From NCBI GenBank assembly GCA_001804865.1, contig MHBK01000019.1:1-64000 (forward strand): a stretch of 64,000 bases of DNA, in the 5' to 3' direction. The notes under the pieces were generated by a model. The model saw only the letters and a list, made by a program, of their open reading frames with translations. It was not told where the DNA came from and did no database searches. A program made the translations under genes and the position numbers. Source of the DNA: Lentisphaerae bacterium GWF2_57_35. Lineage in GTDB: Bacteria > Verrucomicrobiota > Kiritimatiellia > CAIQIC01 > GWF2-57-35. Positions 391-55,705 of this stretch are shown here, piece by piece (the stretch's first letter is position 1; each line of letters opens with the position of its first letter).

Positions 391-429
391 CCCGGATTTC
401 TCACCGGGCGGTGAGAAATGCGGGTTAGG
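391..429. repeat. Palindromic interspersed repeat, copy 1
   Basis: Directly after the metallopeptidase stop codon lies an imperfect palindrome built on atttctcaccg / cggtgagaaat, flanked by cccg and cggg and followed by gttagg. The same sequence in reverse orientation recurs at 56750-56785. It sits between two convergent genes and could act as a transcription-stop hairpin or as a REP-type element; function is inferred only from structure. Confidence 0.6.
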
Positions 430-450
430 CCGTAAATTCAGCCCCATCCA

Positions 451-909: not shown

Positions 910-927
910 ACGGTCCTCTACCCAGCT

Positions 928-1596: not shown

Positions 1597-1626
1597 GATC
1601 GATAACCTTTCCTTGTTCTGTTTTCT

Positions 1627-2328: not shown

Positions 2329-2329
2329 G

Positions 2330-4352: not shown

Positions 4353-4359
4353 AAGTCGT

Positions 4360-5232
4360 CTAAGCCTCCGCCTTGGGATCGGTCGCGCGCCGGGCCAGTT
4401 CGTCGGCCTTGTAGGACGACCGGACCATGGGCCCTGCCGCCACCTCTTTGAAACCCATTTGCCGCGCTCGATCCGCCCAATGCTCGAATTCCGCCGGCGC
4501 ATAAAAATGTGCGACGGGAACGTGCCGTCGACTCGGGGCCAGATACTGTCCCAGCGTCAACAAGGAACAGCCGGCCGTCAGCAAGTCGTTCATCGCGGCC
4601 ATCAACTCCTCCTCGGTTTCGCCCAGCCCCAGCATGAGTCCCGATTTCACCCTCAGCGTCGGCCGCCATTCGGCCGCCTGCTTCAACACCCCCAGCGAAC
4701 ACCGGTAGGAGGCCTGCGGACGAATCGTCGCCTGCAATCGCTCGACCGTTTCCAAATTATGGTTGAAGACATCCGGTTGTGCCAAAAAAACTTTTTGCAG
4801 GGAGGAAGAATTTCCTTTGAAATCCGGTGTAAGTACTTCCACCGCAGCATTCGGACACTCCCGGCGAATGGCCAGAATAGTTTCCGAGAAATGTGCGGCG
4901 CCCCCGTCCGGCAAGTCGTCGCGCGTCACGCTGGTCAAGACCACATGCCGCAATCCCAGGGTCTTGGCGGCCCGCGCCACCTTTCCCGGTTCTTCCGCAT
5001 CGACCGCGCCGGGCAGTCCCGTTTTAACGGCGCAGAACAGGCAATTTCGCGTGCAGGTATCGCCCAAAATCATCACGGTCGCGGTCGCCCGATTCCAACA
5101 TTCATGCTTGTTCGGGCAACGCGCGCTTTCGCAAACGGTATGCAATCCCAGCGAGGACATCAAATGGTCCACCTGGGCATAACCGCTTTCCGTCCGCAAG
5201 GACGATCTGATCCATGAAGGCAACCTGCTCAT
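4360..5232 (-). CDS. lipA: Lipoyl synthase
   Basis: A 290-residue radical SAM enzyme that inserts two sulfurs into protein-bound octanoyl groups. Both iron-sulfur motifs are present: the auxiliary-cluster CESARCPNKHEC (CX4CX5C) and the SAM-cluster CTRNCLFC (CX3CX2C). The C-terminal RSSY motif that ligates the auxiliary cluster is also present (MVRSSYKADE). The ATG at 5232 gives a normal N-terminus; an upstream in-frame ATG at 5268 is possible. It heads the minus-strand run into envelope glycolipid genes, with which it shares no obvious pathway. Confidence 0.97.
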   Translation of the reverse strand: MSRLPSWIRSSLRTESGYAQVDHLMSSLGLHTVCESARCPNKHECWNRATATVMILGDTCTRNCLFCAVKTGLPGAVDAEEPGKVARAAKTLGLRHVVLTSVTRDDLPDGGAAHFSETILAIRRECPNAAVEVLTPDFKGNSSSLQKVFLAQPDVFNHNLETVERLQATIRPQASYRCSLGVLKQAAEWRPTLRVKSGLMLGLGETEEELMAAMNDLLTAGCSLLTLGQYLAPSRRHVPVAHFYAPAEFEHWADRARQMGFKEVAAGPMVRSSYKADELARRATDPKAEA

Positions 5233-9332: not shown

Positions 9333-11252
9333 TTACGACTCAAAATATGTATATCCACGCAGCCCCGACTCATACGCGTCCATAATCTGGCGTCGCTCCT
9401 CGGCGGTAATCCGGCCCGAACGCACAGCCTGTTCGGCCGCTTTTCGAACCCGGTCGAGCATTTCCTGCGGATTGTATTCCACGTAGGACAACACATCGGC
9501 CACCGTGTCGCCGGCGATTTCCGTGGCGTATTCAAGTTCGCCATTTTCACTGACGCGCAGGCTTACCACATGCGTATCGCCCAGCAGATTGTGCAAATCG
9601 CCCAAAGTTTCCTGATAGGCCCCGATCAGGAACACCCCCACATAATAATCCAATCCATTCTTTTCATGCAGCGGCAGCGTCTGCCGGACATCGTGAAGAT
9701 CGATGAAACGGTCGATTTTCCCGTCGCAGTCGCAGGTGATATCCGCGATGGTCCCCTGCCGCGAAGGCACCTCGGCCAGCCGATGAATCGGCATGATCGG
9801 GAATAATTGCTCGATGGCCCACACGTCGGGCAGCGATTGAAACACGCTGAAATTTCCGTAGTAAACGTCCGCAATGGCCGCATCGAGCCCCGCCAACTCG
9901 TCAGGAATGTATTTGCGTCCGCGAATTTCCTCCGCAATGCGCTGTACGATGTGCCAGAAAATCCGCTCCGCCAACGCACGCTGGCGAAGGGTGATTTTTC
10001 CGCTTTCGTAGAGCGCACGGGCTTCGTCGCGGTAATAAACCGCATCGTGATAGCATTCCTGCGCATTCTTGCTGGTCAGAACCTCGTTGACTTCCATCAG
10101 GCGCCGCAACTGCTCCGGGGAATCCGTCGGCACCTGCTCCGGGAGGCCATGCGACTCGCAACGGTTCACCTCCAGGATATTGAACAGCAACACGGAGTGA
10201 TGCGCCACCGTCGCACGCCCGGACTCGCTGACAATCACCGGATGCGGAATCTGGGAATCGTCGCACATCTTCATGACCGCCTCGACGATATCCGCCGCGT
10301 ATTCGTCCATCGTATAATTGCTGCTGGAAGAAAAGTTCGTGTGGGAGCCGTCGTAATCGACCGCCAGACCGCCGCCGACATTCAAAATCCCCATCTGCGC
10401 CCCTTCGCGGGCCAAATCGACGTACAGCCGGCTCGCTTCGGCCGCCGCGGCCCGAATGCTGCGGATGTTGGGAATCTGCGATCCCACGTGGTAATGCAGC
10501 ATGTGCAGACAATCCAGCATGCCGGCGTCGCGCAGATGATCCACCACATCGATGATCTGGGACGCATTCAATCCGAACATGCTCCGGTCGCCGCCGGATT
10601 CCGTCCAATAACCGGCCGCACGCGTCGCCAGCTTGGCGCGAATCCCCAACCGGGGCCGCACGCCCATGCGCTTGGCGCGATCGAGCACCATGGTCAACTC
10701 GTTGGACATTTCCAGCACAATGATAATTTGGATGCCCATCTTCAGCGTCAACAGCGCGAGATCGACGAACTCCTCGTCTTTGTAGCCGTTGCAAACCACA
10801 AACGCCTCGGGATCGTGCATATAGCCCAGCGCGGCAATCAGTTCGGCCTTGCTGCCGGCCTCCAACCCATGATGAAATCGCCCCCCGCAGGCCACCACGC
10901 TTTCCACCACCTGTTGCTGCTGGTTGACCTTGATGGGATAAACTCCGCGGTAATACGACTTGTAGCCCGCATCGAGAACCGCCTTGGCAAAGCTCGTGTT
11001 GATTTGCTCGACGCGCGAAGCCAGGATGTCTTCGAAGCGCAGCAACACCGGCATGTTCAGCCCCCGAGCCTTCAAACCCTCGACAATGTCCATCAGATCG
11101 ACATGGACCTCGGACCCCTTGCCCCGGGGGCGCACCACCACGTTGCCTTTGCCGGAAATATCGAAATATCCGGCGCCCCAATTCCGAATGCCATACAGCT
11201 CGGCAGAATCTTCCGTTGTCCAGCGCGTCAATGTTTCAGGCTTCATTCCCAT
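9333..11252 (-). CDS. speA: Biosynthetic arginine decarboxylase
   Basis: A 639-residue PLP-dependent fold-III decarboxylase converting arginine to agmatine for polyamine synthesis. The PLP lysine lies in YPIKVNQQQ; the glycine loop LNVGGGLAVDYDGS is conserved. Also present: GIRAKLATRAAGYWTESGGD and the C-terminal helical segment of the long SpeA type, whose full length is about 630-650 aa. Start is ATG at 11252 or the in-frame ATG at 11246; a GAGG sits 4 and 10 nt upstream respectively, favouring the second by spacing. A plausible promoter lies about 60 nt upstream. Confidence 0.95.
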   Translation of the reverse strand: MGMKPETLTRWTTEDSAELYGIRNWGAGYFDISGKGNVVVRPRGKGSEVHVDLMDIVEGLKARGLNMPVLLRFEDILASRVEQINTSFAKAVLDAGYKSYYRGVYPIKVNQQQQVVESVVACGGRFHHGLEAGSKAELIAALGYMHDPEAFVVCNGYKDEEFVDLALLTLKMGIQIIIVLEMSNELTMVLDRAKRMGVRPRLGIRAKLATRAAGYWTESGGDRSMFGLNASQIIDVVDHLRDAGMLDCLHMLHYHVGSQIPNIRSIRAAAAEASRLYVDLAREGAQMGILNVGGGLAVDYDGSHTNFSSSSNYTMDEYAADIVEAVMKMCDDSQIPHPVIVSESGRATVAHHSVLLFNILEVNRCESHGLPEQVPTDSPEQLRRLMEVNEVLTSKNAQECYHDAVYYRDEARALYESGKITLRQRALAERIFWHIVQRIAEEIRGRKYIPDELAGLDAAIADVYYGNFSVFQSLPDVWAIEQLFPIMPIHRLAEVPSRQGTIADITCDCDGKIDRFIDLHDVRQTLPLHEKNGLDYYVGVFLIGAYQETLGDLHNLLGDTHVVSLRVSENGELEYATEIAGDTVADVLSYVEYNPQEMLDRVRKAAEQAVRSGRITAEERRQIMDAYESGLRGYTYFES

Positions 11253-21423: not shown

Positions 21424-21576
21424 ATGAGGCAGGAAAAGGAAATTAAAGAGGAGCAACCGGTCGAAAAGACTTCATATGAGGCTCCAAAGATGAAGAAACA
21501 CGATCCGGTAAAGATCGTCCAAGGCTCCGGAAGCTGCGGCGGGCTTTATTACACATCGCTGTATTATTCCTACTAA
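21424..21576 (+). CDS. RiPP precursor peptide with lasso-type YxxP leader and Tyr-rich C-terminus
   Basis: A 50-residue peptide with a strong ribosome-binding site (AGGAGG, 5 nt before ATG). The leader is charged (Lys/Glu-rich residues 3-15) and contains TSYEAPKM at 16-23, matching the Y-x-x-P motif that lasso-peptide leaders use to bind the RRE (B1). The C-terminal part reads GSGSCGG (34-40) then LYYTSLYYSY (41-50): five Tyr, three further Ser/Thr and one Cys nearby, an unusually modifiable tail. A terminator follows 13 nt after the stop, so the transcript is partly separate from the maturation genes. No other gene of this size in the window has such a motif. Core boundary and modifications are unknown; lasso topology is unlikely because no cyclase is present. 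Confidence 0.85.
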   Translation: MRQEKEIKEEQPVEKTSYEAPKMKKHDPVKIVQGSGSCGGLYYTSLYYSY

Positions 21577-21589
21577 TCTTTTGTGCGAA

Positions 21590-21632
21590 AACCTCGCGGG
21601 CTCATCCCATAGACCCGCGAGGTTTTTTTTTG
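21590..21632 (+). terminator. Terminator/attenuator after the precursor gene
   Basis: An 11-bp perfect stem aacctcgcggg/cccgcgaggtt around a 13-nt loop is followed by a run of nine T. It stands between the precursor and the biosynthetic genes, an arrangement that lets the precursor transcript exceed that of the enzymes. Confidence 0.95.
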
Positions 21633-21682
21633 CAGCCAGCTAGACGGGGGACGCCAACCTGAGTTCACCTCTCTTTGTATAT

Positions 21683-22675
21683 TTGGGTCCTTGGATCTTT
21701 TGCATCGAGTCCAATTCCCAAGCCGTCCTGGAAAGCGTGGCGAGTCTGTTTGCCCATCGGGCATCGTATCGCGCACCGGAACAAGGCCGGGTTTTTACTT
21801 GTCGCGTGACGGACGATCCGGATGCTTTTTTCCATTTAGAAGCACAACTCCAAGGTTGCCCGGCTGTCGTGTCGGCCACCAAGGGGATATCGATTCGATA
21901 TGCTTACCAGAGCTCTCGGACGCTCATCGGCATGGATCACACGGCGATCATGCAGCTTGATGAAGGCCAGCCGGAACAAGCGAACGTGTTCCTGGATCCG
22001 ACGAATTACGCCCCCTATCTGGCTGGCGACGCCCAACGCAGAATTCGCGCCGATCCCGAAGCTTTTCTCTACCCGCTTCTGGCCGAATGGCTGCGCACCT
22101 GGGATGCCTGCCTGATCCATTGCGGCGCCGTGGTCGTGAATGGTCATACCGTCATGTTTTCCGGTCCGCCCGGCAGCGGGAAGTCGACCCAAGTTTTGCG
22201 CCTGCTGCTTCAGGGCGCTCATTTTTTGGCGGACGATCTGGCCATTTTACGGCGCTCGGAGCAAGGCTTGTGCATGCAACCGCTTCGCGAGGTGGCCAAT
22301 GTCAGCCCTATTTCCAAGCAGCATTTTCCCGAATTGGAGTTCCTGGATCGTTGTCCCGTTCGGGGCGACGGCAAGCGCATGGTCGACATCCATAGCATCC
22401 TGGGCCAATCGGCTGCGCAAGAAGCCCGACCCGGCGCCATACTTCGTATCCATCCGGACTCCGCTTCCTGGATCATTCCTTGTCCGGAGGAAGATCGCCT
22501 CACGGGCATCGAAAACATGGCGTGGTTTCGATCCGATCCCGCAAGAACGACCCGGCATTTCTGGCTGTTGATGGATTGGCTCTCGGCTTCGCGCCAGTGG
22601 CGCGTATCCCAGGGGTATCTGGCCTCTCATTTGTCGGAACTCATGCACCTGCTAAAACAGGAGTTTCCGGCATGA
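21683..22675 (+). CDS. HPr kinase-like protein A of the RiPP cluster
   Basis: A protein of about 330 residues. The HprK-type C-terminal kinase domain has Walker A GPPGSGKS (~161-168), then QGAHFLADDLAIL with the Asp pair seen in HPr kinase/phosphorylase. The N-terminal ~140 residues are family-specific. Relatives act as K proteins in lasso clusters (phosphorylating a Ser of the peptide) or in 'HPr-rel' systems with PqqD-like and nucleotidyltransferase partners. The frame opens with a TTG at 21683; a CTG at 21659 behind GGGGGA is also possible, so the start is uncertain. It overlaps kinase B by 4 nt. Substrate is presumably the Ser/Thr/Tyr-rich core (inference). Confidence 0.8.
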   Translation: MGPWIFCIESNSQAVLESVASLFAHRASYRAPEQGRVFTCRVTDDPDAFFHLEAQLQGCPAVVSATKGISIRYAYQSSRTLIGMDHTAIMQLDEGQPEQANVFLDPTNYAPYLAGDAQRRIRADPEAFLYPLLAEWLRTWDACLIHCGAVVVNGHTVMFSGPPGSGKSTQVLRLLLQGAHFLADDLAILRRSEQGLCMQPLREVANVSPISKQHFPELEFLDRCPVRGDGKRMVDIHSILGQSAAQEARPGAILRIHPDSASWIIPCPEEDRLTGIENMAWFRSDPARTTRHFWLLMDWLSASRQWRVSQGYLASHLSELMHLLKQEFPA

Positions 22676-23682
22676 GATCTTTTACCTCGCTGTTCGAACC
22701 GCTGGCCGCCCAAGCTTCCTGCCGGCACACCATCCCCATCATGAGCGCCCGGCTGAACCTGTTCTCTTCGGACGCGGAATTGCTGAACGATTTTGCACAC
22801 ACTTTTGTGGATTTGGATTTTACCGGTCATCAAGCCGGCTCGCAGAGCATGGAATGCGGCCTTGCGCCCCTGTCGGCCGCCTTGGATTGGAAAGACGCGC
22901 TGTCGGCCCGTCTGCAACGGGAGATCGATCATGAAGGCCTCGGACGACTCGTTCTTTATAAATGGCAGGAAGGCATCGGAGTCGAGCAGCGCGGGTTCGG
23001 CGTCGTGTTGGCGCATGCGTCCGGGCAATTTCTTTGCCTGGTCGAGAACCCGGCAGCCGCCCCCGCCGGCCGCATGCGGAATCTTTTCGGACTGGCCCAA
23101 CTCATCACGGCCGAAGCGCTGACCCGCCAACAACTCTTGTTTGTGCATGCCGGCGGTTGCGGGCTCAATGGGCGCTGCATCCTTCTGACCGGCCCCAGCG
23201 GCGCGGGAAAGACCACGCAAGCACTCCGCTTGATCCGAGAAGGCGCAACTTTTTACGGCGACGACCAGATCGTCGTGGGCCGAAATGCCGAAGGCCGATG
23301 GACCGCCTGGCCTTACTGGCGCAACATCGGCATTACCGCCTCGACGGCCCAGCTCCTCCCCTGGCTGCCGCAACCGGACAAAAACGGGGCCGGCAAAGAA
23401 AAATTCTTTTTTTCGGCCGGCGAGGAATTCCAATTCAAGAAGCCGGGTCCGGCCCGGATCGAGGCCATCGCATGGCTTTCTCCAACGGAGACAGAGCTTC
23501 GAAAGGTAGACCGCGAGGAGGCGCTGGCTTGCCTGGGCCAGCATTTTCTATCGGTCCCCTGGACGGCGGATGCCGGTCAAGTCTTGGGCGCGCTTTGCGA
23601 AATGGCGGAGAAAATCCCGGTTTACATCATGCCCCGAAACCAACTATCGGTCGCCGCCTGGAAACAAATCGCCCATGCATGA
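22672..23682 (+). CDS. HPr kinase-like protein B of the RiPP cluster
   Basis: A 336-residue paralogue of kinase A: Walker A GPSGAGKT (174-181) in ILLTGPSGAGKTTQALRL and EGATFYGDDQIVV (Asp-Asp at ~197-198). The N-terminal ~150 residues differ strongly from kinase A. ATG at 22672 overlaps the preceding stop (ATGA), and its own stop lies within the first codons of the radical SAM gene. Two tandem HprK-like proteins suggest two phosphorylation sites, a heteromeric kinase, or kinase plus phosphorylase. Confidence 0.8.
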   Translation: MRSFTSLFEPLAAQASCRHTIPIMSARLNLFSSDAELLNDFAHTFVDLDFTGHQAGSQSMECGLAPLSAALDWKDALSARLQREIDHEGLGRLVLYKWQEGIGVEQRGFGVVLAHASGQFLCLVENPAAAPAGRMRNLFGLAQLITAEALTRQQLLFVHAGGCGLNGRCILLTGPSGAGKTTQALRLIREGATFYGDDQIVVGRNAEGRWTAWPYWRNIGITASTAQLLPWLPQPDKNGAGKEKFFFSAGEEFQFKKPGPARIEAIAWLSPTETELRKVDREEALACLGQHFLSVPWTADAGQVLGALCEMAEKIPVYIMPRNQLSVAAWKQIAHA

Positions 23683-25063
23683 TCTTTCCTCCAACGAAAC
23701 GATCCGCCTGCTGTCCGCGGACGATCCGACCCAACAGCTCGGGCTGGCGTTGTTGGGCGATTCGCCGGAGCGTCATGCCGCTCAAATCCTGGAAGCCATG
23801 CTTCAAGCCAGCGCTCCGGCGCGCGATCGACTCGGCTTGTTCTGCCGGACGCGCTTTCCCTTTCTGGCGCCGCCCTGCAAAGCCGGACGTCTCATCGACG
23901 CGAATTCGTTCGTGGTCGGCGACGGCATGAAGCAACGCGAAAACCTCTTTTTGCATTCCGTGCGAGTCTGGCTGGAATCGCATCGCGAAAAGAATCCGTC
24001 TGTCTGTTTCGACCTGCTGAAGGAGCACACCGCCCTGGCGGCCGAATACGAACGAATAATTGAAGAACTCCTGGGCGCAACCGGCCTCGATGCCTGGCGG
24101 CCCTACGCAGCCAATGCCCAACCGGACCCCGTCCGGCAGTTGGGGTTTGCGCCGACGTACCGGTGCAACTTGTCTTGTCCCTACTGCATCAGCGCCTCCA
24201 TGCCGCGTGACGAGGCGGGCTGGGAGGATATCCGCCGCTTGATCCATTGGTGCCGGCAAAACGACGTCCGCCGGCTTCACTTGTTCGGCGGGGAGCCCAC
24301 TTTCCATCCAAATTTTACGGCCCTGCTACAGGAGGCCGAACAAGCCGGACTGGAAGTCTATTTTCCATCGAATTTGGTCATGTCCCCCGCCAACCTCGCC
24401 TTCATCCAACCCCCGGTGGTCCGCACGGTAACGGCGCACGTTCGGTCGCCGGATTCAACGCGCACCGGCGACACGTTCTGGCAGACGGCCGATACGCTGC
24501 AACAAAAGGGCGTTGCCGTGCGGGTGCGCTACAATTTAAAAAACGAGGACTGGTCGTTTCTGGTCGACGGCCTCAAACGGCTAAACAGCCGTAAGTTGAT
24601 TTTTGCCGGCATCGAATTCCCGGGCTGCGGGACACAGCGTTCCGAGGTGGAGTGGCTCGATCACGTCGCCTGCGCGCGCCGTTTTGTGGACTACATGCTG
24701 GAGCGAAACATCAAACCGGTGCTGGCCAAACCCCTGCCGCAATGCCTCGTGGAACAGGTCGGAGGCGCCATCCCCTGGGACGTTTTCCGGGGCCATTGCG
24801 AAGTTCATCAAAACCGGTACATGCGGAATGTTCATGTGCGCCCCGACTTCAAGATCGCCCTGTGCAATGGGGATATGAATCCGGCGAGACCCAGCCTGTG
24901 GCAATTCCCCGACTGGGCGGCCTTGCAGGACTACGTCGAACCCCGTCTGCGCGCATGGCAGAAACAACCGCTTTGGCCAAAATGCCGGTCCTGCTACTAT
25001 GAATTCCGCGGACTCTGCCAGGGCGCTTGCCTGATCGCAAAAGACCAGGAGCTGAAATCGTGA
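23675..25063 (+). CDS. Radical SAM/SPASM protein 1 with ~150-residue N-terminal extension
   Basis: A 462-residue protein. The SAM cluster motif CNLSCPYC is at Cys164/168/171, followed by the GGEP-type motif LHLFGGEPTFHP. The C-terminus has a SPASM/twitch-like Cys set (CKPL-region cysteines, CEVHQ, IALCNGD, CRSCYYEFRGLCQGAC) for auxiliary clusters. Residues 1-150 precede the barrel, contain CRTRFPFLAPPCKAGR, and match no family I know; they could be a leader-binding or partner domain. ATG at 23675 overlaps kinase B by 8 nt. Probably modifies the precursor core. Confidence 0.85.
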   Translation: MHDLSSNETIRLLSADDPTQQLGLALLGDSPERHAAQILEAMLQASAPARDRLGLFCRTRFPFLAPPCKAGRLIDANSFVVGDGMKQRENLFLHSVRVWLESHREKNPSVCFDLLKEHTALAAEYERIIEELLGATGLDAWRPYAANAQPDPVRQLGFAPTYRCNLSCPYCISASMPRDEAGWEDIRRLIHWCRQNDVRRLHLFGGEPTFHPNFTALLQEAEQAGLEVYFPSNLVMSPANLAFIQPPVVRTVTAHVRSPDSTRTGDTFWQTADTLQQKGVAVRVRYNLKNEDWSFLVDGLKRLNSRKLIFAGIEFPGCGTQRSEVEWLDHVACARRFVDYMLERNIKPVLAKPLPQCLVEQVGGAIPWDVFRGHCEVHQNRYMRNVHVRPDFKIALCNGDMNPARPSLWQFPDWAALQDYVEPRLRAWQKQPLWPKCRSCYYEFRGLCQGACLIAKDQELKS

Positions 25064-25557
25064 AAGCCGGCTTCCAACAAATCATGAGCCGTATCGATCG
25101 GCTGACGGCGCTGATCGAGCATAAAAACATCGAAGAAGCCGCCCAACTCGTGGACGAGCATCGAGCCGAATTGGCCTTGGATGACCCTCTTTATCCCTGG
25201 CTCAAAAGAGCCTGGCCTCTGCTTCGCTATTTACGACCTGAAACCCGGCGCCAGCCCTGCCTGTACCTTTGCCTGTTGTTCTTCGCGCGAGCCTGCCGCT
25301 TGCAGCAGGACGCACGGATTAACGTCTGCCTGTCCGCCCACCAGACGGAGATGAACAACGGGCATTGCTGGCTGACCATTGACGGAGAGACGATCCCTCT
25401 GTCGCCTTCCGACCGCGACCATTTCGGCGAATGCCTCGGCGGCAGCCAATGGATTCGCTATTGGGTGAGGTTTTCCCTTCGGAGCCGCAATCCGCACATT
25501 ATGGCCCGACTTAAACACATCACGCGCTTTTTGCACAAAGGAGCTTCTCATGGCTAA
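25060..25557 (+). CDS. Lasso B2-type (McjB/transglutaminase-like) leader peptidase
   Basis: A 165-residue protein. The segment from residue 66, PCLYLCLLFFARACRLQQDA, then INVCLSAH and GHCWLTIDGETIPLS, matches the McjB C-terminal (Transglut_core3) pattern: nucleophile Cys67, His102 and Asp108 as the presumed triad. In lasso clusters B2 cleaves the leader with the help of B1. The start is a GTG at 25060 overlapping the previous stop (GTGA), 9 nt after AGGAG. It overlaps the next radical SAM gene by 8 nt. B1 is a separate gene at 29371-29646, as in split-B lasso systems. B2 identity rests on motif pattern, not on a search. Confidence 0.75.
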   Translation: MKAGFQQIMSRIDRLTALIEHKNIEEAAQLVDEHRAELALDDPLYPWLKRAWPLLRYLRPETRRQPCLYLCLLFFARACRLQQDARINVCLSAHQTEMNNGHCWLTIDGETIPLSPSDRDHFGECLGGSQWIRYWVRFSLRSRNPHIMARLKHITRFLHKGASHG

Positions 25558-26527
25558 TATCATGTTAACGACCGCCTGTAATTTCCGATGCGATTACTGC
25601 TTCGGACGGCAGTTGATCGGCCCCGAACATCCGATTCAGATGATGGACCCGGACCTCTATCGCCGGTTGCTCGATTGGATCGATGCCGCCAATATGCCGA
25701 ACCTGGACGTCCACCTCATGGGCGGAGAGCCCACCCTGCATCCGAAATTCTCCGAATTAGCCGAGGAGCTGGTTCAACGGGGACGCAAGGCGGTTGTTTT
25801 CTCGAATTTGTCGGCGCCCTTGCCCAAAGAAGTGCTGGAACGTTGCGTGGAGAACGACGTGATGTGGGTAGTCAATGCCAACGCCCCCTCCTCTTACCTG
25901 CCCGTTCAATTGGAGCACTTGCATCGCAATCTGGCCGTAGTGGGCGACCAAGCGATGCTGACGTTCAACATCACGGGGCCCGACACGGATTTCGACTACA
26001 TCTTCGACCTGATCGCGCAGCACAAGCTTGCGCACAGCATTAAAATCGGCATCACGCTGCCCACCCTGGATCATCAAAATGCGCATGTGAAGCGGGAACA
26101 ATACCCCGGCGTGGCCAAGCGAGTCATGGAACTTCACGAGGAGGCCCTTCGTCAAAACGTCCGGATCGAATTCGAATGCGGCGTGGCCTACTGCGTATTT
26201 AGCCCCGCCCAGCGCGCGCTCTTGAAAGACATCCATATCAGCCATTGCGGATCGCGGCTGGACATCACGCCCTGGGGCGAAGTCATCAACTGCCTGCCGT
26301 TGTGTAAAGCCGCCAGCATAGCTTATGACCGGTTCGCGCATTATGGCGAAGCCGTGCACTGGTATCGCCGGGCGCTGCATCCCTATCGGGGCTTGGGCAA
26401 CTCTACGACCTGTCCCGACTGCGCTCACATGAAGGAAGGTCGTTGCGGAGTCTGTCTGGCGGACACGCTGTGGCAGATGGATCACATCGCCTGGCCGCCT
26501 CAACCGGCGGCGAACTCGATTTCATAA
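25550..26527 (+). CDS. Radical SAM/SPASM protein 2
   Basis: A 325-residue protein that begins almost directly with the cluster motif CNFRCDYC (Cys10/14/17), followed by HLMGGEPTLHPKF. The C-terminal half has FECGVAYCVFSP, SHCGSRLDITPWGEVINCLP and CPDCAHMKEGRCGVC, the Cys layout of two auxiliary clusters. Clearly paralogous to the protein at 28405-29358 (motif at the same residues) and to the Cys-less relative at 27563-28408. Start overlaps B2 by 8 nt; ends one base into the next start (TAATG). Inferred precursor-modifying enzyme. Confidence 0.88.
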   Translation: MANIMLTTACNFRCDYCFGRQLIGPEHPIQMMDPDLYRRLLDWIDAANMPNLDVHLMGGEPTLHPKFSELAEELVQRGRKAVVFSNLSAPLPKEVLERCVENDVMWVVNANAPSSYLPVQLEHLHRNLAVVGDQAMLTFNITGPDTDFDYIFDLIAQHKLAHSIKIGITLPTLDHQNAHVKREQYPGVAKRVMELHEEALRQNVRIEFECGVAYCVFSPAQRALLKDIHISHCGSRLDITPWGEVINCLPLCKAASIAYDRFAHYGEAVHWYRRALHPYRGLGNSTTCPDCAHMKEGRCGVCLADTLWQMDHIAWPPQPAANSIS

Positions 26528-27555
26528 TGGACGCAAACCCGATGCCGCGCTCCTTCAAAGAACACTGCCGACGACGACTGACCCGCTGGACGGGTCTGCC
26601 CTTCGGCCCACCCCGAACGCTGGCCATCGAGCCGACCAATCACTGCACCCGGAAATGCCCAGTCTGCGGCGCTCATTCCGGCCAGGCCATCCGCCCGCGC
26701 GGCTTCATGGATTGGAATCTTTTTCTGGCCCTCGCGGATCAAATCCAGGCCCTGAAGCCGGCGCGAGTTTCTTTGTATGGGCACGGAGAGCCGCTGTTGC
26801 ATCCGCGCTTGCCCGACATGACGCGGGAGCTGGCGCAACGGGGCTTGCACACTGAAATAGTAACTAACGGCGATCTACTGGATGCGGAGCTGCTGGCGCG
26901 ATGCTCGTCAGCCGGTCTCGGCAGCTTGATTGTCTCCCACCCCGGCATTACGCCGGCAAATTACAAAGCTTGCCGGGGCGAGCTGCAAAATACAGTCCAG
27001 GAAGATCGATTGCGATCGTTGATTCAAAGTGCGGCGCCTTCCTGCGACATTTACATCCGCAGTCTGGTTTTGCCGCAGCTGTTGAACGACGGCCCCGCCG
27101 AGTTGGCGTCGTTTGTCCGCGGCTGGCTCACGCTGCCAGGCATCCGCGGCGTGGGACTGCACGGATATCAACCCTGGCCGCGTCATGGCCTGGAGCAGCA
27201 CCTCGGGCAGCTCTTTACCCGAGCCCGCCGTTGCGAGTTGGGCATGGAAACCATGACCGTTCTCTGGAATGGAACCGTTACGCTGTGCTCTTACGATTCG
27301 GAAGGAGCCCTCGCGGTGGGACAGGCACCGGGCTTGTCCTTGCTGGATGCTTACCGCGGCGCCGAAGCCCGGCGGCGGCGCAAAGCATGGTTTGGCGCCT
27401 CGTCCAAATGGCCGGAACTGTGCCGCGATTGCCTGTTGCCCCGTTGCGCGGCGGTCTTCATTCCCCTGGGCCGCGAGATTCTTCGCTCGGAGACCTTGTT
27501 CGAACGCCAGGTTCGCAGTGCGTACGATCAACTGAACGCCGCGCATTCAGGATAG
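26527..27555 (+). CDS. Radical SAM/SPASM protein 3
   Basis: A 342-residue protein of a different subfamily from protein 2: CTRKCPVC at Cys40/44/47 within LAIEPTNHCTRKCPVCGAH, then VSLYGHGEPLLHP (GEP motif) and a C-terminal SPASM-like CSYDSEG...CRDCLLPRC. The IEPTNHC context recalls SPASM proteins acting on peptides or in cofactor assembly. ATG at 26527 overlaps the previous stop. It is the last plus-strand gene of this arm, ending 7 nt before the convergent minus-strand arm. Confidence 0.87.
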   Translation: MDANPMPRSFKEHCRRRLTRWTGLPFGPPRTLAIEPTNHCTRKCPVCGAHSGQAIRPRGFMDWNLFLALADQIQALKPARVSLYGHGEPLLHPRLPDMTRELAQRGLHTEIVTNGDLLDAELLARCSSAGLGSLIVSHPGITPANYKACRGELQNTVQEDRLRSLIQSAAPSCDIYIRSLVLPQLLNDGPAELASFVRGWLTLPGIRGVGLHGYQPWPRHGLEQHLGQLFTRARRCELGMETMTVLWNGTVTLCSYDSEGALAVGQAPGLSLLDAYRGAEARRRRKAWFGASSKWPELCRDCLLPRCAAVFIPLGREILRSETLFERQVRSAYDQLNAAHSG

Positions 27556-27562
27556 CGCGCCC

Positions 27563-28408
27563 TTATCGGCCAGCCTGCCACCCCGACATGGACTGCGCCA
27601 GGCAACCCACCCCGCAAGCCCCCGTGGCCAAACTCCGGCAATTCGTACCCCCAGCCCGCTCGCACCAACCCTGGAAAACCGCAGGCCAACCGGCCATCAC
27701 GTCCGCCCGGCTAACGGAAGCATCCAGATTCATGCCGCGGCCATCCATCGCCGGGCACAATCGCAAGGTTCCATCGGGCAAAACAGCGAGCTGAAGCTGA
27801 CAGCGCGCCGCCGGCCAACGAATGCGCGTGCCGGTCAATTGGGCAAGCTGCGGCCGGGAAAAAAGGCAGAGCGGCAACCCGCAGGCAAATTCCACATCCA
27901 GCCGCCGGGCGCTCAATTCAGCGGCCAGTTCCACCAACAATTTGCCCCACACGGAATACCGATCGGGAGAGATGATTCCCGGTCTTTCGAAACGGCTCGG
28001 CCACATCGCCCCCAGCACAACCCGCCGCGAGGGCTTTATCGCGTCCACCACTTTCAACCAAAGCGCAGGATCAGCGACGGGCTCCATCAAGGGCAAAAAC
28101 AAAACCGACGGCAAAACCGGATAACGAGGGGCTGCCGTTTCCATGCCGGCGGCATCAAGACCCCATTCGCTGCCATGAGCCTGAATGGTCTCGATATGCT
28201 CCATCGTAACATGCCGATCGAACCAGCCATGAACCCAATACGGAGGTTTCAAAATCGCCAGGGCGCCCCGAAGCTCGTTTACGTCCACTTCGCCGCGCAC
28301 ATAAAGATGAATTTCCGGGTCGCCGGATGTGAGGCTCCATTCGGCACAACGTTTCAGGCACTCGGCCGTCATGACCGACCGGCCATCGCCAAGCCAGATC
28401 GCGATCAT
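27563..28408 (-). CDS. Radical SAM-like pseudo-enzyme (CX3CX2C lost, SPASM-like C-terminus kept)
   Basis: A 281-residue paralogue of the radical SAM proteins at 25550 and 28405. The C-terminal block VEFACGLPLCLFSRPQL...RCQLQLAVLPDGTLRLCP...CRSLATGACGVGC aligns with theirs position by position. The N-terminus starts IAIWLGDGRSVMTAECL, with no cysteine cluster where CX3CX2C should be. It therefore cannot bind the SAM cluster but may keep an auxiliary cluster or bind peptide. ATG at 28408 overlaps the upstream gene's stop (ATGA), with intact frame and normal codons, so it is not a decaying pseudogene. Possibly a scaffold or partner. Confidence 0.75.
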   Translation of the reverse strand: MIAIWLGDGRSVMTAECLKRCAEWSLTSGDPEIHLYVRGEVDVNELRGALAILKPPYWVHGWFDRHVTMEHIETIQAHGSEWGLDAAGMETAAPRYPVLPSVLFLPLMEPVADPALWLKVVDAIKPSRRVVLGAMWPSRFERPGIISPDRYSVWGKLLVELAAELSARRLDVEFACGLPLCLFSRPQLAQLTGTRIRWPAARCQLQLAVLPDGTLRLCPAMDGRGMNLDASVSRADVMAGWPAVFQGWCERAGGTNCRSLATGACGVGCLAQSMSGWQAGR

Positions 28409-29358
28409 GAGTCGCCTCCCGCCCGGGCCAGCGTTCTGGACATGCACCCGCCCGAACAAACGCCGTCAGCGAAAGGACGGCATTGAACGCAACTCTTCAA
28501 ACTTCCGCGCGCTTGGGGCTCCTGCCAACGCTCCAGGAAATGCCGGGAGATTTCTTCCAGCGAGGAAAATTGCGTCAAGGTCACGCTGTGCGCGCCGGAA
28601 AACGGGAAACATCGCCACACCTTCAAGTCAGGTCCAATATCCAGGATCGGCTTGCATACGAACAACAATTCGGCGCCGCACTCCACCAAGGTCGCCAATT
28701 CGTCCGGCGTGAAGAGGCACCGTTGAAAACCGCAGTCAAAACCGATCACAATGCCGTCCTTCGCCAAATCCACGGCCATCTCCACCAAGCGGGCCGCGAC
28801 GGAGCGCAAATCGGCGTCCTTGAGGTATACGTTTTTCTCGCCCTGAATGGGTTGCGTGATGCCGATGCGAATGGATTTTCCCAGGCCGGTTTCCTGAATC
28901 GTCCGGCGCAGATAATCCCACTCGAATCCGGGCGTATAAATGTTGAACGAAAGCCGCGCCCGATCGCCGAAGGCCCGGCCGTTTGCCACGATTTCGGTCC
29001 ATTCCGTTTTCGTATATTGATCGGGCGGATTCAAATTAACGATGATCCGCAAGGCCGATGAAGGAGACAGGTCCACCACCTCCCTCAGGCGGGGATTCGT
29101 GCCGTTGGTGAAAATTTTTACGCTGTAGCGCCGATCCAAAGCCAGCTTCACCAGCTGGGCAAAATGCCGGTGCAGCGTAGGCTCGCCGCCCAACAACGCC
29201 ACCGAGTCGCGCCCCGGACGCAAATAGCCGAGGATGGTTTCATATTCCGCCAGACTCATTTCCCAGCGAGGCGTCGATGTGCCCAGGGCGACTTGTTCCT
29301 TGGCAAAGCAGTAAGGACAACTCCGATTGCAGTAATTGGTCAGGAGGATATTCGGCAT
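28405..29358 (-). CDS. Radical SAM/SPASM protein 4
   Basis: A 317-residue enzyme with CNRSCPYC at Cys10/14/17 (same positions as protein 2), SVALLGGEPTLHRHF, and C-terminal FDCGFQRCLFTP, CKPILDIGPDLKVWRC and CVQCRPFADGVCSGGC. It lies 12 nt downstream of the PqqD-like B1 gene; RRE-radical SAM adjacency is a hallmark of RiPP maturation. It overlaps the pseudo-enzyme gene by 4 nt, which suggests the two are made in equal amounts and may form a pair. Confidence 0.88.
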   Translation of the reverse strand: MPNILLTNYCNRSCPYCFAKEQVALGTSTPRWEMSLAEYETILGYLRPGRDSVALLGGEPTLHRHFAQLVKLALDRRYSVKIFTNGTNPRLREVVDLSPSSALRIIVNLNPPDQYTKTEWTEIVANGRAFGDRARLSFNIYTPGFEWDYLRRTIQETGLGKSIRIGITQPIQGEKNVYLKDADLRSVAARLVEMAVDLAKDGIVIGFDCGFQRCLFTPDELATLVECGAELLFVCKPILDIGPDLKVWRCFPFSGAHSVTLTQFSSLEEISRHFLERWQEPQARGSLKSCVQCRPFADGVCSGGCMSRTLARAGGDS

Positions 29359-29370
29359 TCGCCACGCTCT

Positions 29371-29646
29371 TCAGGAACCAGTCGATTCCGCCACGAGGTT
29401 TTCGCTTTTCCACTCGCCGATGAGGGCGAGGCAATCCTGCCGCACGGCCTCCGCTTCCGGCGCTTCTTTCACGGCATCGCGCAGAGCCATCACCGTCTCG
29501 TCCAGCGACTTCTTGCCGACCACATGATTTTTCCACAACAAAGAACCCGTGGCGTTCAAGGTGTAGTACTGGCCGTTGGCCGTATTAAGAACCACGCAAA
29601 TGTCCCCGGAATTCCGCCACACAATATGATCCCCTGTCGTCAACAT
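29371..29646 (-). CDS. PqqD-like RRE protein (lasso B1-type leader-binding protein)
   Basis: A 91-residue protein with the PqqD/RRE pattern: three beta strands around WRNSGDICVVLNTANGQYYTL, then NATGSLLWKNHVVGKKSLDETVMAL and a terminal helix. The RRE binds leader peptides; in lasso systems it recognises the YxxP motif, which the precursor at 21424 carries. A strong AAAGGAG precedes the ATG by about 6 nt. It follows the NTP_transf_5 gene (84-nt gap) and precedes radical SAM protein 4. Confidence 0.88.
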   Translation of the reverse strand: MLTTGDHIVWRNSGDICVVLNTANGQYYTLNATGSLLWKNHVVGKKSLDETVMALRDAVKEAPEAEAVRQDCLALIGEWKSENLVAESTGS

Positions 29647-29729
29647 GTTCCACTCCTTTGATTATTAACTGCCATCATGACGATACTTTAGCGGAGCGCT
29701 CAACGGTTGCAATGATCTTTGTCGACAAC

Positions 29730-30839
29730 TCATCCACCGCGCGCAATCACTTTACCGCTGAGCCCAGCCCGTCGCGCCGAGCGATACTCCCGCATAAATT
29801 TTGCCGAGAAGCACGGGAGAATGGCGGCGAGCTTGGACCACCACCCTTCCGCCTCGCTCACTTCAATCCGTTTCCACAACCTGAAAGCTTCCGGAGACTC
29901 CCCGGTGAAAAGTCCTCTGGCAGCCCAATAACGATTGACCAGCCGATCGAAACGGTCTTTCACACCCCAATCGACGCTTGCCCAGCTCAAAGGCATTTCC
30001 CAACCGACTTCCTGCAGGCCCCGCCATACGACCCAGGCCATGCGGCCCCATCCCCGTGATAAAAAGGCCGTTTGCACAGCCGAAGGGTCAGGCTGCCGAA
30101 CCGACCACCAGGCCGCCAGGTCGCGAAGCCAGAGGTAACGCGCATACTCATGATGCCTCGCATGCAAAACCAACATCAGCAGATCGTCAACGGGTTCCAA
30201 TTGTAACAACGGCGCATGTCGCGGAGAGGGTTGAGCCCTATCCATTAAGGCCTCCGTGCTCAACAAGCCCCAGTGCCGTCGGCGTTCCGCTGCGCAAAAA
30301 TGGACCTCAATAAGCGCATCGCCCCGACGATAAATCCGCTGGCGCCTGCGGCGTTCTTCTTCAAACCGATGCCCTAAAAACCAGGAGGAAACGGCATCGA
30401 TATCGTTTTCGGAAACGAGCAGATCGATATCGCGAACTTCCCGGCAACGATAATCGCCGAAGACTTCCAAGAGGTAATTCGGGGATTTCATCAGCACGAC
30501 CCGGCAGCCGATTTCACGAGCCAACGTTCCTACTTCGCAAAGGCCTTCGTTCACGATGGCCCCACGTCGCGCGGCGGTCTCTCCGGCAATCCAGAGCAGC
30601 TCTCGGGCCGCTTCCGGCAAAGCCGAGAAGCCGGCCCAGGGCGTTTGGAAGCCCGCCAGCACCCGATGATACTGCCCCATCCACAGCAGATAGCCCCAAT
30701 CCAGCTGTTCCATGTCCCAGACGGATTCCATGCATCGATTGCGCCAGCTTGCCTCCAGGGAAGAAAACCAGAATTGCCGGGAATACGGGTCGGCCCGCTT
30801 GGGACAGACCAATTCAAATTCGTTCATTTGCTTTGCCAT
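29730..30839 (-). CDS. NTP_transf_5-type nucleotidyltransferase
   Basis: A 369-residue protein with the hallmark of the 'uncharacterised nucleotidyltransferase' family: VVLMKSPNYLLEVFGDY then REVRDIDLLVSENDIDAV (metal-binding D-I-D) and later DALIEVHF. Such proteins accompany HprK-like kinases in lasso and HPr-rel clusters; in the pseudomycoidin lasso system the homologue is implicated in elaborating the phosphorylated residue. ATG at 30839 or 30827; neither has a clear ribosome-binding site. It is divergent from the kinase gene at 30907 across a 67-nt shared promoter region. Confidence 0.82.
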   Translation of the reverse strand: MAKQMNEFELVCPKRADPYSRQFWFSSLEASWRNRCMESVWDMEQLDWGYLLWMGQYHRVLAGFQTPWAGFSALPEAARELLWIAGETAARRGAIVNEGLCEVGTLAREIGCRVVLMKSPNYLLEVFGDYRCREVRDIDLLVSENDIDAVSSWFLGHRFEEERRRRQRIYRRGDALIEVHFCAAERRRHWGLLSTEALMDRAQPSPRHAPLLQLEPVDDLLMLVLHARHHEYARYLWLRDLAAWWSVRQPDPSAVQTAFLSRGWGRMAWVVWRGLQEVGWEMPLSWASVDWGVKDRFDRLVNRYWAARGLFTGESPEAFRLWKRIEVSEAEGWWSKLAAILPCFSAKFMREYRSARRAGLSGKVIARGG

Positions 30840-30906
30840 AGTTTGGGACCGTCGTATACTGAAATCCACGTATAACACGTCCGCCGCACGGGCGTCAAAA
30901 CTGCAC

Positions 30907-31728
30907 ATGAATCCATTAAAGAAAACCGATCGTTCGCTGCCCCCGGGATACAGGGCTGAAGGGATGCGGCATGAAAGCCCGGCTTACGTCGTGTACCAAG
31001 CGCTGCACCTGGCCACCGGCCGGATGTGCGCTATTAAAACCACGCGAAAAGCGCCCACCCCGGACGCCACAACGGCCTTGGAACATGAATTTGACGCGCT
31101 ACGGCGTTTGTCGGGATCGTTCGCGCCCAAAGCGTACGAGTTGCTTCGTCCGGAGAAGCTGTTCCTCGTGCTGGAGTGGATCGACGGCGCCGACCTGGAA
31201 AGCATCATTCGAAGCAAGCCGCCGCTTCCACGCGCCATCGCACTGGCAAGCATGATCCTGAAGGCCGTTGACGATTTGCATGCCTCGGGTTTTTTGCACT
31301 TGGATCTGAAGCCGGCCAATATTCTGATCCGCCCAACGGGCGCCGCCGCCTTGATCGATTTTGCCCTCGCCCAACCCATCGGGCCGCCTGTCGCCCCGCC
31401 CGAGCAGCCGTTTCTTTTGCAAGGGACTTTATCCTATATGGCGCCGGAGCAAACCGGCTGGCTCGATGCACCGATCGATCGACGCGCGGATTATTATGCG
31501 CTGGGAGTCATTTTTTATGAATTGTTCGTCGGCGCGACGCCGTTTGCCGCCCAGACATTTCAGGAACTGCTGGATCATGTGCTTCACTCCGTTCCGGCAG
31601 AACCCATCGACCTACCGCTGCCGCTAAACCAGCTCATCATGCAATTGCTGGCCAAGCATCCGGATCAGCGGCCCGGCGAATTGGGCAAAGCCGCCGCGGT
31701 CGTTTCCTCGTCGGCAGAGATTTGCTGA
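30907..31728 (+). CDS. Ser/Thr protein kinase-like protein
   Basis: A 273-residue Hanks-type kinase domain without membrane or sensor domains. Present: the N-lobe lysine in CAIKTTRK (Lys44), catalytic loop HLDLKPANIL (His131, Asp133, Asn138) and YMAPEQTGWLD (APE). Atypical: no GxGxxG loop (RAEGMRHESPAYVVY instead), and DFG replaced by DFA (Asp151-Ala153). The Asp is retained, so activity is possible. The stop region overlaps the 3' end of the convergent ABC gene by 64 nt. Could regulate the cluster or phosphorylate the peptide; neither is shown. Confidence 0.85.
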   Translation: MNPLKKTDRSLPPGYRAEGMRHESPAYVVYQALHLATGRMCAIKTTRKAPTPDATTALEHEFDALRRLSGSFAPKAYELLRPEKLFLVLEWIDGADLESIIRSKPPLPRAIALASMILKAVDDLHASGFLHLDLKPANILIRPTGAAALIDFALAQPIGPPVAPPEQPFLLQGTLSYMAPEQTGWLDAPIDRRADYYALGVIFYELFVGATPFAAQTFQELLDHVLHSVPAEPIDLPLPLNQLIMQLLAKHPDQRPGELGKAAAVVSSSAEIC

Positions 31729-33500
31729 ACCATGCACATATACTTGAAGATCGGCGACGAAACGAGCAGGTCCTGAGGCCGCCCCACGGCTTCCACGCGG
31801 TTTTGATTGAGCACGACCACCCGATCCGATCGCATGGCCAGACTCATGCGATGCGTGACGATCAGCGTGATGCGCTCCGGCGCCGCTGAACCGATCAACC
31901 GAAAAACCTGTTCCTCCGACTGGGCATCCAAGGCCGAAGTCGGTTCGTCGAGCAACAACACATCCGGCCGCGCCAGCAACGCGCGCAACAAGGCGATTCG
32001 CTGGGCTTCGCCGCCCGACCAGTCCGTCCCGCTTTCGGCCATCCGGGCCTCCAAGCCGCCCCGGCGAGCCGTCACTTCGCCCAGCCCCAGCGTCGCCAGC
32101 CCCGAGAGCAGCTCTTCCTCGCACACGTCAGGGGCTCGAATCAGCAGATTCTCCCGGATCGTCCCTCGAAAGAGTTCCGGAGATTGGAAAACCACGCCAA
32201 TTCGGCGTCGCCAATCGCCCAAGGCCAGCGTATCCAAGGAACGTCCGTTCACAAGCACTTGCCCTTGATCCGGCTGAATGAAGCCCAGTATCAAATCCAA
32301 GAGCGTGGATTTTCCTACTCCGCTCAAGCCCACCATGCTCACTACCTCGCCGCGCCTCACGGCCAAGTCAATCTGTTCCAAGCCGCCCCCATCCGCTCCA
32401 TACGCAAAACTCACGTTGGAAAAGGCCAGCTCGTGAACAGGGCCGGGCATGGGCGCCGCATCCGGTTTTTCGATGGCCTCGGGAGGTTCATCCATGAGCT
32501 TCAGATAACGAGAGCCCGCCGCGCGAAAATCCTGCACCGAAGCCACGGCCAGGGCCGCCTTGCGCAATTCCTGTCCGATAAGCAGAATCCCGACGAGAAT
32601 GGACACCAAGGCGCCCACGGACAATTCGCCGCGGCGCACCCAATCCACGCCGGTAAAGGCGACGGCCAGAAAGCAGAGCAATAGGACGATCGCCGCCACA
32701 TGCCGCGCCGCCAGGGCCATCAACAAGCCGCTGCGCGCCAGCCGCAGATGATCCTTCACCCAGGCGCGAAGCACGCCGGCCTGCCGTTCCTCCAGGCAGA
32801 ACGCCTTGACGGTCCGCGCATGAAAAAACGATTCCGCCAATCGGCCCGTCAAACTGCTCATCTGATCCAGCTTATCCGCGCTGATGCGCATGAGCCGCCG
32901 GCGGAGCAGCAAAGCCGGCAATCCGGCGGCCAGCAGCGAGACAACGATCACGGCCGCGTAGCCCCGCGAAAGCCAAAGGATGGACGACAGATAAACCAGC
33001 AGAGTAATCGGGGCCGCCAGCAACAGCCGGGGCAACGTCAGTATCCCCTGTTGAACGGCCCTCACATCGTGATCGCAACGGGAAACCCATTCGCCGACCG
33101 GCACGCTCTCGAGCCGGCGCAGCGGCAGCCGCAGCACATGAAGATAGACCGCCTCGCGCAAGGTCTCGCGAATTCGCAGCGATTCGCCCAACTCCAGATT
33201 GGAACTGAGAAAAAACACGATTTCGACGGCCAGCAAGAGTCCCGCGCTGCACGCAAACAACCACCCCGCATCGTACCCCAGCGAGCCGCCCTCCCATTCC
33301 ACCAGCCGTCGCAAGAGAGGCAACAGGGCCGCCAACATCGCCGCCGCCAAGCTTTGAAGGCCAATCAAGGCAAGCAGCTTCCACCACGAGCACCGGGCCA
33401 GACGGCTGATGCGGAAAAAATCGTCCCGGGAAAAATCCGAAGGAGCGCCGCGGCGACGGGGATTCGCCAAAGCCAAAGGAGTCTCCCTGTTGTGCTTCAT
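31665..33500 (-). CDS. ABC exporter (lasso D-like), fused membrane and ATPase domains
   Basis: A 611-residue half-transporter: transmembrane helices between ~40 and 310, then an ATPase with Walker A GLSGVGKST (391-399), Q-loop VVFQSPELF, signature WSGGEAQ (494-500), Walker B VLLLDEPTS (~514-522) and H-loop His550. There is no N-terminal C39 peptidase domain, so leader removal must be done elsewhere, consistent with B2. Alone in its orientation next to the kinase; proposed to export the mature peptide. An MsbA-like lipid exporter is the alternative. Confidence 0.88.
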   Translation of the reverse strand: MKHNRETPLALANPRRRGAPSDFSRDDFFRISRLARCSWWKLLALIGLQSLAAAMLAALLPLLRRLVEWEGGSLGYDAGWLFACSAGLLLAVEIVFFLSSNLELGESLRIRETLREAVYLHVLRLPLRRLESVPVGEWVSRCDHDVRAVQQGILTLPRLLLAAPITLLVYLSSILWLSRGYAAVIVVSLLAAGLPALLLRRRLMRISADKLDQMSSLTGRLAESFFHARTVKAFCLEERQAGVLRAWVKDHLRLARSGLLMALAARHVAAIVLLLCFLAVAFTGVDWVRRGELSVGALVSILVGILLIGQELRKAALAVASVQDFRAAGSRYLKLMDEPPEAIEKPDAAPMPGPVHELAFSNVSFAYGADGGGLEQIDLAVRRGEVVSMVGLSGVGKSTLLDLILGFIQPDQGQVLVNGRSLDTLALGDWRRRIGVVFQSPELFRGTIRENLLIRAPDVCEEELLSGLATLGLGEVTARRGGLEARMAESGTDWSGGEAQRIALLRALLARPDVLLLDEPTSALDAQSEEQVFRLIGSAAPERITLIVTHRMSLAMRSDRVVVLNQNRVEAVGRPQDLLVSSPIFKYMCMVQQISADEETTAAALPNSPGR

Positions 33501-55642: not shown

Positions 55643-55705
55643 ATCATCGTTTTTTTCATGCGAGCGCCTAGTTTATCGCAACCGTTCCCACGGTCAATGT
55701 CCGAC

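Follow-up and report, generated by a model that had tools for sequence, protein, structure and literature searches.

The window, a stretch of 64,000 nucleotides at the start of contig MHBK01000019.1 (C19) of Lentisphaerae bacterium GWF2_57_35, contains between positions 21,424 and 33,500 a gene cluster that quite probably serves one coherent pathway for a ribosomally synthesised and post-translationally modified peptide (RiPP), in which proteins of the lasso peptide type would handle the leader, radical S-adenosylmethionine (SAM) enzymes would modify the core and HprK-like kinases would phosphorylate it. The plus-strand arm encodes a precursor peptide, HprK-like kinases 1 and 2, the radical SAM enzyme rSAM1, a B2-like protein, rSAM2 and rSAM3, and the minus strand encodes an ABC exporter, an NTP_transf_5 protein, the protein B1, rSAM4 and a Cys-less radical SAM paralogue (Table 1).

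The original prediction, made from the sequence of this stretch, had named the same genes, and all of them were found, including the 50-residue precursor with a YxxP leader, the PqqD-like RiPP recognition element (RRE) protein B1, both HprK-like kinases, the NTP_transf_5 protein, the exporter and the Cys-less paralogue. One gene of the interval had been overlooked, that of an intact Ser/Thr protein kinase sited between the NTP_transf_5 and ABC genes. The two arms, described as converging and overlapping, do converge, but a 7-bp gap separates them; the overlaps lie inside each arm, where most adjacent genes share a few bases or are spaced by no more than 14 bp, and between the Ser/Thr kinase and ABC genes, which share 64 bp on opposite strands. 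Four gene starts were shifted relative to that prediction (rSAM1 to 23675, B2 to 25084, NTP_transf_5 to 30839 and the Cys-less paralogue to 28408).

Table 1. Features of the gene cluster, in coordinates of the window, with the model matches (E values) that identify them
Feature	Position	Strand	Evidence
Precursor peptide, 50 aa	21424..21576	+	MRQEKEIKEEQPVEKTSYEAPKMKKHDPVKIVQ/GSGSCGGLYYTSLYYSY, predicted cut at the slash
Terminator-like hairpin with T-tract, between precursor and enzyme genes	21590..21632	+	fold -27.3 kcal/mol, z -5.5
HprK-like kinase 1	21683..22675	+	TIGR04352 5.7e-9, PF07475 2.3e-4, both below cutoffs
HprK-like kinase 2	22672..23682	+	TIGR04355 1.5e-9, PF07475 9.6e-6, both below cutoffs
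Radical SAM enzyme 1 (rSAM1)	23675..25063	+	PF04055 8e-10; motif CNLSCPYC
B2-like leader peptidase candidate (transglutaminase-like Cys-His)	25084..25557	+	PF13471 0.005, below cutoff
Radical SAM enzyme 2 (rSAM2)	25550..26527	+	PF04055 3.8e-12
Radical SAM/SPASM enzyme 3 (rSAM3)	26527..27555	+	PF04055 9e-13, SPASM PF13186 6e-7
Pseudo-radical SAM protein, without CX3CX2C	27563..28408	-	no Pfam or NCBIfam match
Radical SAM enzyme 4 (rSAM4)	28405..29358	-	PF04055 3.5e-14
B1, lasso-type PqqD/RRE protein	29371..29646	-	PF05402 1.5e-10, NF033530 4e-7
NTP_transf_5 nucleotidyltransferase-like protein	29730..30839	-	PF14907 4.3e-23
Ser/Thr protein kinase	30907..31728	+	PF00069 2.3e-34
ABC exporter	31665..33500	-	PF00005 1.8e-31, PF00664 8.7e-21

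Homologous clusters and their precursor peptides

An alignment of rSAM2/rSAM4 relatives was used to scan 84,980 species genomes; it retrieved 304 relatives, and as the scan retained the best 80 loci, the number of clusters given here is a lower bound. The same set of nine to ten genes occurs in at least 18 other genomes, one Spirochaetes metagenome-assembled genome (MAG) and 17 Bacteroidales MAGs, many of the latter from rumen or other gut samples, and this recurrence puts the gene set far beyond chance. In the Spirochaetes locus (L073) the layout of two convergent arms is found again, together with the Cys-less paralogue, at 30-48% identity (48% for rSAM4, 43% for rSAM2), while the Bacteroidales genomes carry a single operon, typically in the order B2-rSAM4-rSAM2-B1-precursor-HprK-rSAM1-rSAM3-ABC-NTP5.

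Among 346 genomes of the window's class the full set was found in the window genome alone, and two others have a lone rSAM2/rSAM4 relative with different neighbours. The cluster is present in one of 388 sampled genomes of the window's phylum, where another has a lone relative, in one of 393 of the phylum to which the Spirochaetes locus belongs, where another has a weak relative, and in two of 393 of the order that includes the Tannerellaceae locus (L035), one being the query's own. That the cluster is so rare and occurs at scattered points in three phyla suggests that it spreads horizontally and plays an ecological role. No rSAM2 match was found in viral contigs, and plasmids gave one distant radical SAM match and nothing else.

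The precursor gene of the window is preceded by an AGGAGG ribosome site and is the single open reading frame (ORF) of its type found in the window genome. Directly 3' of it lies the hairpin with a T-tract, and none of 200 shuffled sequences folded as strongly. A hairpin after the precursor gene is a common arrangement for RiPP precursors; here, partial readthrough possibly leaves the precursor in excess over the enzymes. Every one of the 18 homologous loci contains a short ORF with the same leader, and one (L063) has two, giving an alignment of 20 precursors, in which the Spirochaetes peptide is 70% identical to that of the window. In window numbering, Y18, P21, H26, V32, Q33, G34 and S35 are invariant in all 20 (pattern Y..P....H.....VQGS). 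The cores following VQGS are 14-31 residues long, contain 29-60% Tyr and are built of units such as LYYTSLYY and LYYTTLYY, with repeat number and core length differing freely between genomes. Asp and Glu are absent from 18 of the 20 cores, including the predicted core of the window, GSGSCGGLYYTSLYYSY, which has one Cys at position 5; 16 of the 20 have no Cys. None of the NCBIfam models matched the precursors tested.

Cleavage is predicted at VQ/GS, before Gly34, which would place Tyr at -16 and Val at -2. In the lasso leaders of a Bradymonadales set the YxxPxL motif spans -17 to -12 and the core starts with Gly1, and Ile or Val at -2 occurs in phosphorylated lasso peptides (PMC10368454). Compared with this motif, and given the predicted cleavage site, the leader Tyr stands at -16 instead of -17, and the last motif position is Thr or Met instead of Leu.

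The original prediction had further stated that the window encodes no lasso cyclase, which was borne out. The window genome has three full-length Asn_synthase genes, all on other contigs (C55, C43 and C15, none on C19); their neighbours resemble polysaccharide genes, and in their 20-kb surroundings no match to the cluster proteins was present among the matches listed. A check for Asn_synthase near the homologous loci, set beforehand, likewise found no lasso cyclase in any of the 18. The one SGGxDS-type ORF of more than 250 aa in these loci encodes a 672-aa protein (L035), which resembles an NAD synthetase. In whole-genome searches, 10 of the 18 cluster genomes had no Asn_synthase match longer than about one-third of the domain, and the matches in the remaining eight have the size and score expected of a housekeeping enzyme. 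Incompleteness of MAGs is a caveat for single genomes, not for this pattern of absence. Since 18 of the 20 cores lack Asp and Glu, no lasso ring is possible in them, and the missing cyclase together with the missing ring acceptor is a strong argument against an ordinary lasso product.

Enzymes and other proteins of the cluster

B1 is lasso-type by every comparison made. All 18 members of its family match the lasso PqqD models NF033530/NF033536; the window protein falls below their curated cutoffs, and its best NCBIfam match is a lasso PqqD model. In the Protein Data Bank (PDB) the family profile matches lasso B1 proteins only (TbiB1, 9.8e-14; a second lasso PqqD protein; TfuB1). The B2-like protein is the weakest assignment of the cluster, a candidate leader peptidase identified mainly by Cys61 and His96, which together with Asn82 and Trp98 are invariant in 18 homologues, and by the sister clusters described below. 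PF13471 (Transglut_core3) matches weakly in seven of the 18 members.

The four radical SAM enzymes match PF04055 (E 8e-10 to 3.5e-14), have an intact CX3CX2C motif and conserve C-terminal Cys residues; the Cys-rich C-termini of rSAM1, rSAM2 and rSAM4 are named by no model. The AlphaFold model of rSAM1 (predicted local distance difference test score, pLDDT, 87) has the streptide maturase SuiB as its best PDB match (E 1.9e-11, 15% identity). Its N-terminal domain was considered as an RRE and rejected, being all-helical in the model. PqqE- and mycofactocin-type radical SAM models gave weak scores. A maximum-likelihood tree unites the rSAM2 proteins of the 19 clusters in a single clade (support 100/99) and separates them from 53 relatives found in other contexts. 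The pseudo-radical SAM protein is kept in the Spirochaetes locus (10062-10985; 30% identity, E 2e-15) and was not seen in the Bacteroidales operons.

Both HprK-like kinases keep the H146, K167, D184 and D185-type catalytic residues (numbering of kinase 1), which are essential in lasso kinases (PMC9266682), and a kinase is present in all 19 precursor-bearing loci. An NTP_transf_5 homologue occurs in 18 of 18 homologous loci; it is possibly the counterpart of PsmN, a nucleotidyltransferase-like protein reported to add a hexose to a phosphorylated lasso peptide (PMC9266682). An ABC exporter is present in most loci, and no C39 peptidase domain was found in that of the window. The 18 homologous loci contain no counterpart of the Ser/Thr protein kinase, which is therefore probably an insertion in the window lineage, where it could act as a further tailoring or regulatory kinase.

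Related loci and known systems

Four further clusters without a cyclase (L017, L022, L023 and L051) combine a lasso-type B2 and relatives of rSAM4/rSAM2 with other precursors. In L017 and L023, where an rSAM4 relative is encoded in the locus as well, the B2 protein exceeds the lasso-B2 cutoff of NCBIfam. L022, L023 and L051 additionally encode B1, HprK, NTP_transf_5 and an rSAM1 relative, accompanied in L051 by a B12-binding radical SAM enzyme and a Kdo-kinase-like protein. Candidate precursors were noted in L022 (4879-5058, ending in YVKPTVVKHAAATQVVGSAGGCNSYSATGCLVANQYYY, with a terminal QYYY) and in L051 (4641-4790, ending in FQRPELKKHGKLKNTASQTTISKYTYSTIT); no Asn_synthase domain at all was found in the L051 genome. 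The pairing of a lasso leader module with radical SAM enzymes, as the original prediction proposed, is thus supported by the lasso-type B1, by the loci without a cyclase and by the L017 and L023 B2 proteins encoded beside the same radical SAM family. Of the two findings named beforehand as refuting it, a dedicated lasso cyclase and radical SAM genes belonging to an unrelated pathway, neither was made.

Locus L011, where contig 62 of a class-level relative (G042) ends (1-4745), has genes of HprK, NTP_transf_5, a B12-binding radical SAM enzyme and an rSAM2/rSAM4 relative in a row; no precursor was found in this locus, which possibly belongs to a different RiPP pathway. A separate clade consists of about 20 rSAM4-type proteins whose hosts include Bacteroidetes, Elusimicrobia and Deltaproteobacteria (L024-L029, L032, L037, L039-L041, L045, L049, L056, L062, L064 and L072), and B1, B2 and HprK were undetected near most of them. 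Elsewhere in the window, the AT skew is unusually high (0.25) at 54001-56000, over a long minus-strand ORF (53570-55642).

Among known systems, the cluster resembles phosphorylated lasso peptides such as paeninodin, pseudomycoidin and BsfA in its YxxP leader, lasso-type B1, B2-like protein and HprK with H-K-D-D residues (PMC10368454, PMC9266682), as well as in the nucleotidyltransferase-like protein, the ABC exporter and the Val at -2, which corresponds to the Ile/Val(-2) group. Unlike them, it has no C cyclase, no Asp/Glu acceptor in nearly all cores and no C-terminal Ser, and it has a Tyr-rich repeat core and four radical SAM enzymes; its B2 is also shorter than lasso B2 and below the model cutoffs. 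The cluster thus seems to work as a phosphorylated lasso pathway would at its beginning and end, with radical SAM enzymes in between, and its product is not a lasso peptide, because the cyclase and the Asp/Glu ring acceptor, the two defining features, were looked for and not found.

The SynChlorMet (Scm) cassette also comprises a PqqD protein, the HprK-like ScmC and the paired radical SAM/SPASM proteins ScmE/ScmF, to all of which there are weak matches. The lasso models outscore the Scm models for B1, and membership was rejected with scores far below the cutoffs (ScmC 19 of 125 bits, ScmD 21 of 100, ScmE/F about 30 or less of 400). Among RiPP-maturing radical SAM enzymes, likeness to SuiB is seen in the match of the rSAM1 model, and DynA, PapB and WgkB gave weak profile matches only; the cluster differs from such systems in the low identity to SuiB, in a separate lasso-type B1 for the leader, in several radical SAM enzymes per peptide and in a Tyr-rich repeat core. 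A sactipeptide or ranthipeptide was ruled out, as 16 of the 20 cores have no Cys for thioether bonds. With a short precursor beside CX3CX2C enzymes that carry auxiliary-cluster Cys in 19 genomes, the cluster belongs, on sequence grounds, to the radical SAM-modified RiPPs in the broad sense.

The RRE-Finder survey reports about 300 lasso-model RREs adjoining radical SAM genes and treats them as false positives of that model; neither a precursor, a core pattern, a kinase set nor a family is described in the passages concerned (PMC7470986). The Tyr-rich family may give some of these false positives a concrete identity. In the open-licence literature, which the search covered, no description of this peptide family was found, and the family of modified peptides is apparently new to the literature.

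Proposed pathway and alternative explanations

In the likely order of steps, B1, by analogy with lasso B1, would bind the YxxP...KH leader and present the precursor to the other enzymes. The Tyr-rich core would then be modified by rSAM1, rSAM2 and rSAM4, joined in most genomes by rSAM3, and the pseudo-radical SAM protein would act as a scaffold. It seems reasonably likely that the radical SAM step is a cross-linking, in which case the side chains of Tyr, and perhaps of Leu, Ser or Thr, would be joined within repeats of the LYY(T/S)(S/T)LYY type. Phosphorylation of the peptide is also fairly likely: the HprK-like kinases would act on Ser or Thr, and the invariant Ser35, which follows the predicted cut, is the best candidate by analogy with the kinase BsfK, which acts on Ser3 with the help of B1 (PMC10368454). 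The NTP_transf_5 protein may extend the phosphate, B2 would remove the leader at VQ/GS, and the ABC protein would export the product, in which no lasso ring would be made.

Several observations weigh against such a pathway. Its chemistry is deduced from sequences and structural models. The original prediction counted four intact radical SAM/SPASM proteins, and all four radical SAM domains stand, but Pfam recognises SPASM solely in rSAM3. The McjB-like identity given there to the B2-like protein held for its invariant Cys and His, but not for the Pfam match, which is below the cutoff; its AlphaFold model (pLDDT 86) had no PDB match at E <= 0.001 in Foldseek, and the weak fold matches include transglutaminase-, arylamine acetyltransferase- and endoisopeptidase-type folds. 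The rSAM4 proteins of the window and of the Spirochaetes genome fall outside the Bacteroidales rSAM4 clade, which stands on a long branch; this could reflect either an exchange of some members of the set or a distortion of the tree by long branches. Furthermore, rSAM3 is missing from the Spirochaetes locus and rSAM1 from three Bacteroidales loci, hence not every enzyme is essential.

The radical SAM enzymes might instead perform other chemistry on the core, such as epimerisation, decarboxylation, or excision or cleavage at Tyr as for a cofactor of the pyrroloquinoline quinone (PQQ) or mycofactocin type. Tyr serves as substrate residue for both PQQ and mycofactocin, and the weak scores of the corresponding models point the same way; but core length (14-31) and repeat number vary, unlike those of a conserved cofactor, most loci include an exporter, and the best fold match of rSAM1 is a cross-linker, at fold level only, which makes this explanation unlikely. 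It is rather unlikely, too, that the HprK-like and NTP_transf_5 proteins have a partner protein or some other small substrate as their target, leaving the peptide with radical SAM changes alone: the cores do lack the terminal Ser used by paeninodin-type kinases (PMC9266682), but a kinase is present in 19 of 19 loci, the H-K-D-D residues are kept, and an invariant Ser stands right after the predicted cut.

Two further explanations have hardly any probability left. In one, a plus-strand kinase/radical SAM operon and a minus-strand ABC/NTP/B1/radical SAM operon would have come together by chance, as their opposite strands and convergence in the window could suggest. In the Spirochaetes locus, too, the two arms are neighbours, and the Bacteroidales operons contradict the idea, since in 17 genomes members of both arms stand on one strand, the radical SAM genes together with those of the precursor, B1, B2, kinase, exporter and NTP_transf_5; the radical SAM genes thus do not belong to an unrelated pathway. 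In the other, the cluster would be a lasso pathway whose cyclase lies elsewhere or has been lost, in keeping with the A/B1/B2/K/N/D set, the YxxP leader and the three Asn_synthase genes of the window genome; it was rejected on the locations of these genes, whose listed surroundings hold nothing similar to the cluster, on the cores without an acceptor and on the 10 of 18 genomes without a full-length domain.

The pathway of lasso-type leader handling, radical SAM modification and phosphorylation thus describes a well-delimited family that spans many genomes, is recognisable by a clear signature of its precursors and is named by neither NCBIfam nor the papers found. More tentatively, with rather less than an even chance, it may represent a new RiPP class, of Tyr-rich repeat peptides cross-linked by three to four cooperating radical SAM enzymes, phosphorylated, perhaps glycosylated, and sharing leader handling with lasso peptides. 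Lasso pathways may have been the origin of the leader module, rather than the reverse. New linkages are likely, given Tyr-rich cores acted upon by several radical SAM enzymes and kinases, and the different repeat lengths of the species form a natural series of substrates from which the rules of modification could be derived. With this family it can also be tested directly whether the modules that process lasso leaders are interchangeable with radical SAM chemistry. If the family is indeed a new class, then together with L017, L022, L023 and L051 it would mean that lasso peptides are one branch of a wider B1/B2 system with an exchangeable core-shaping enzyme.

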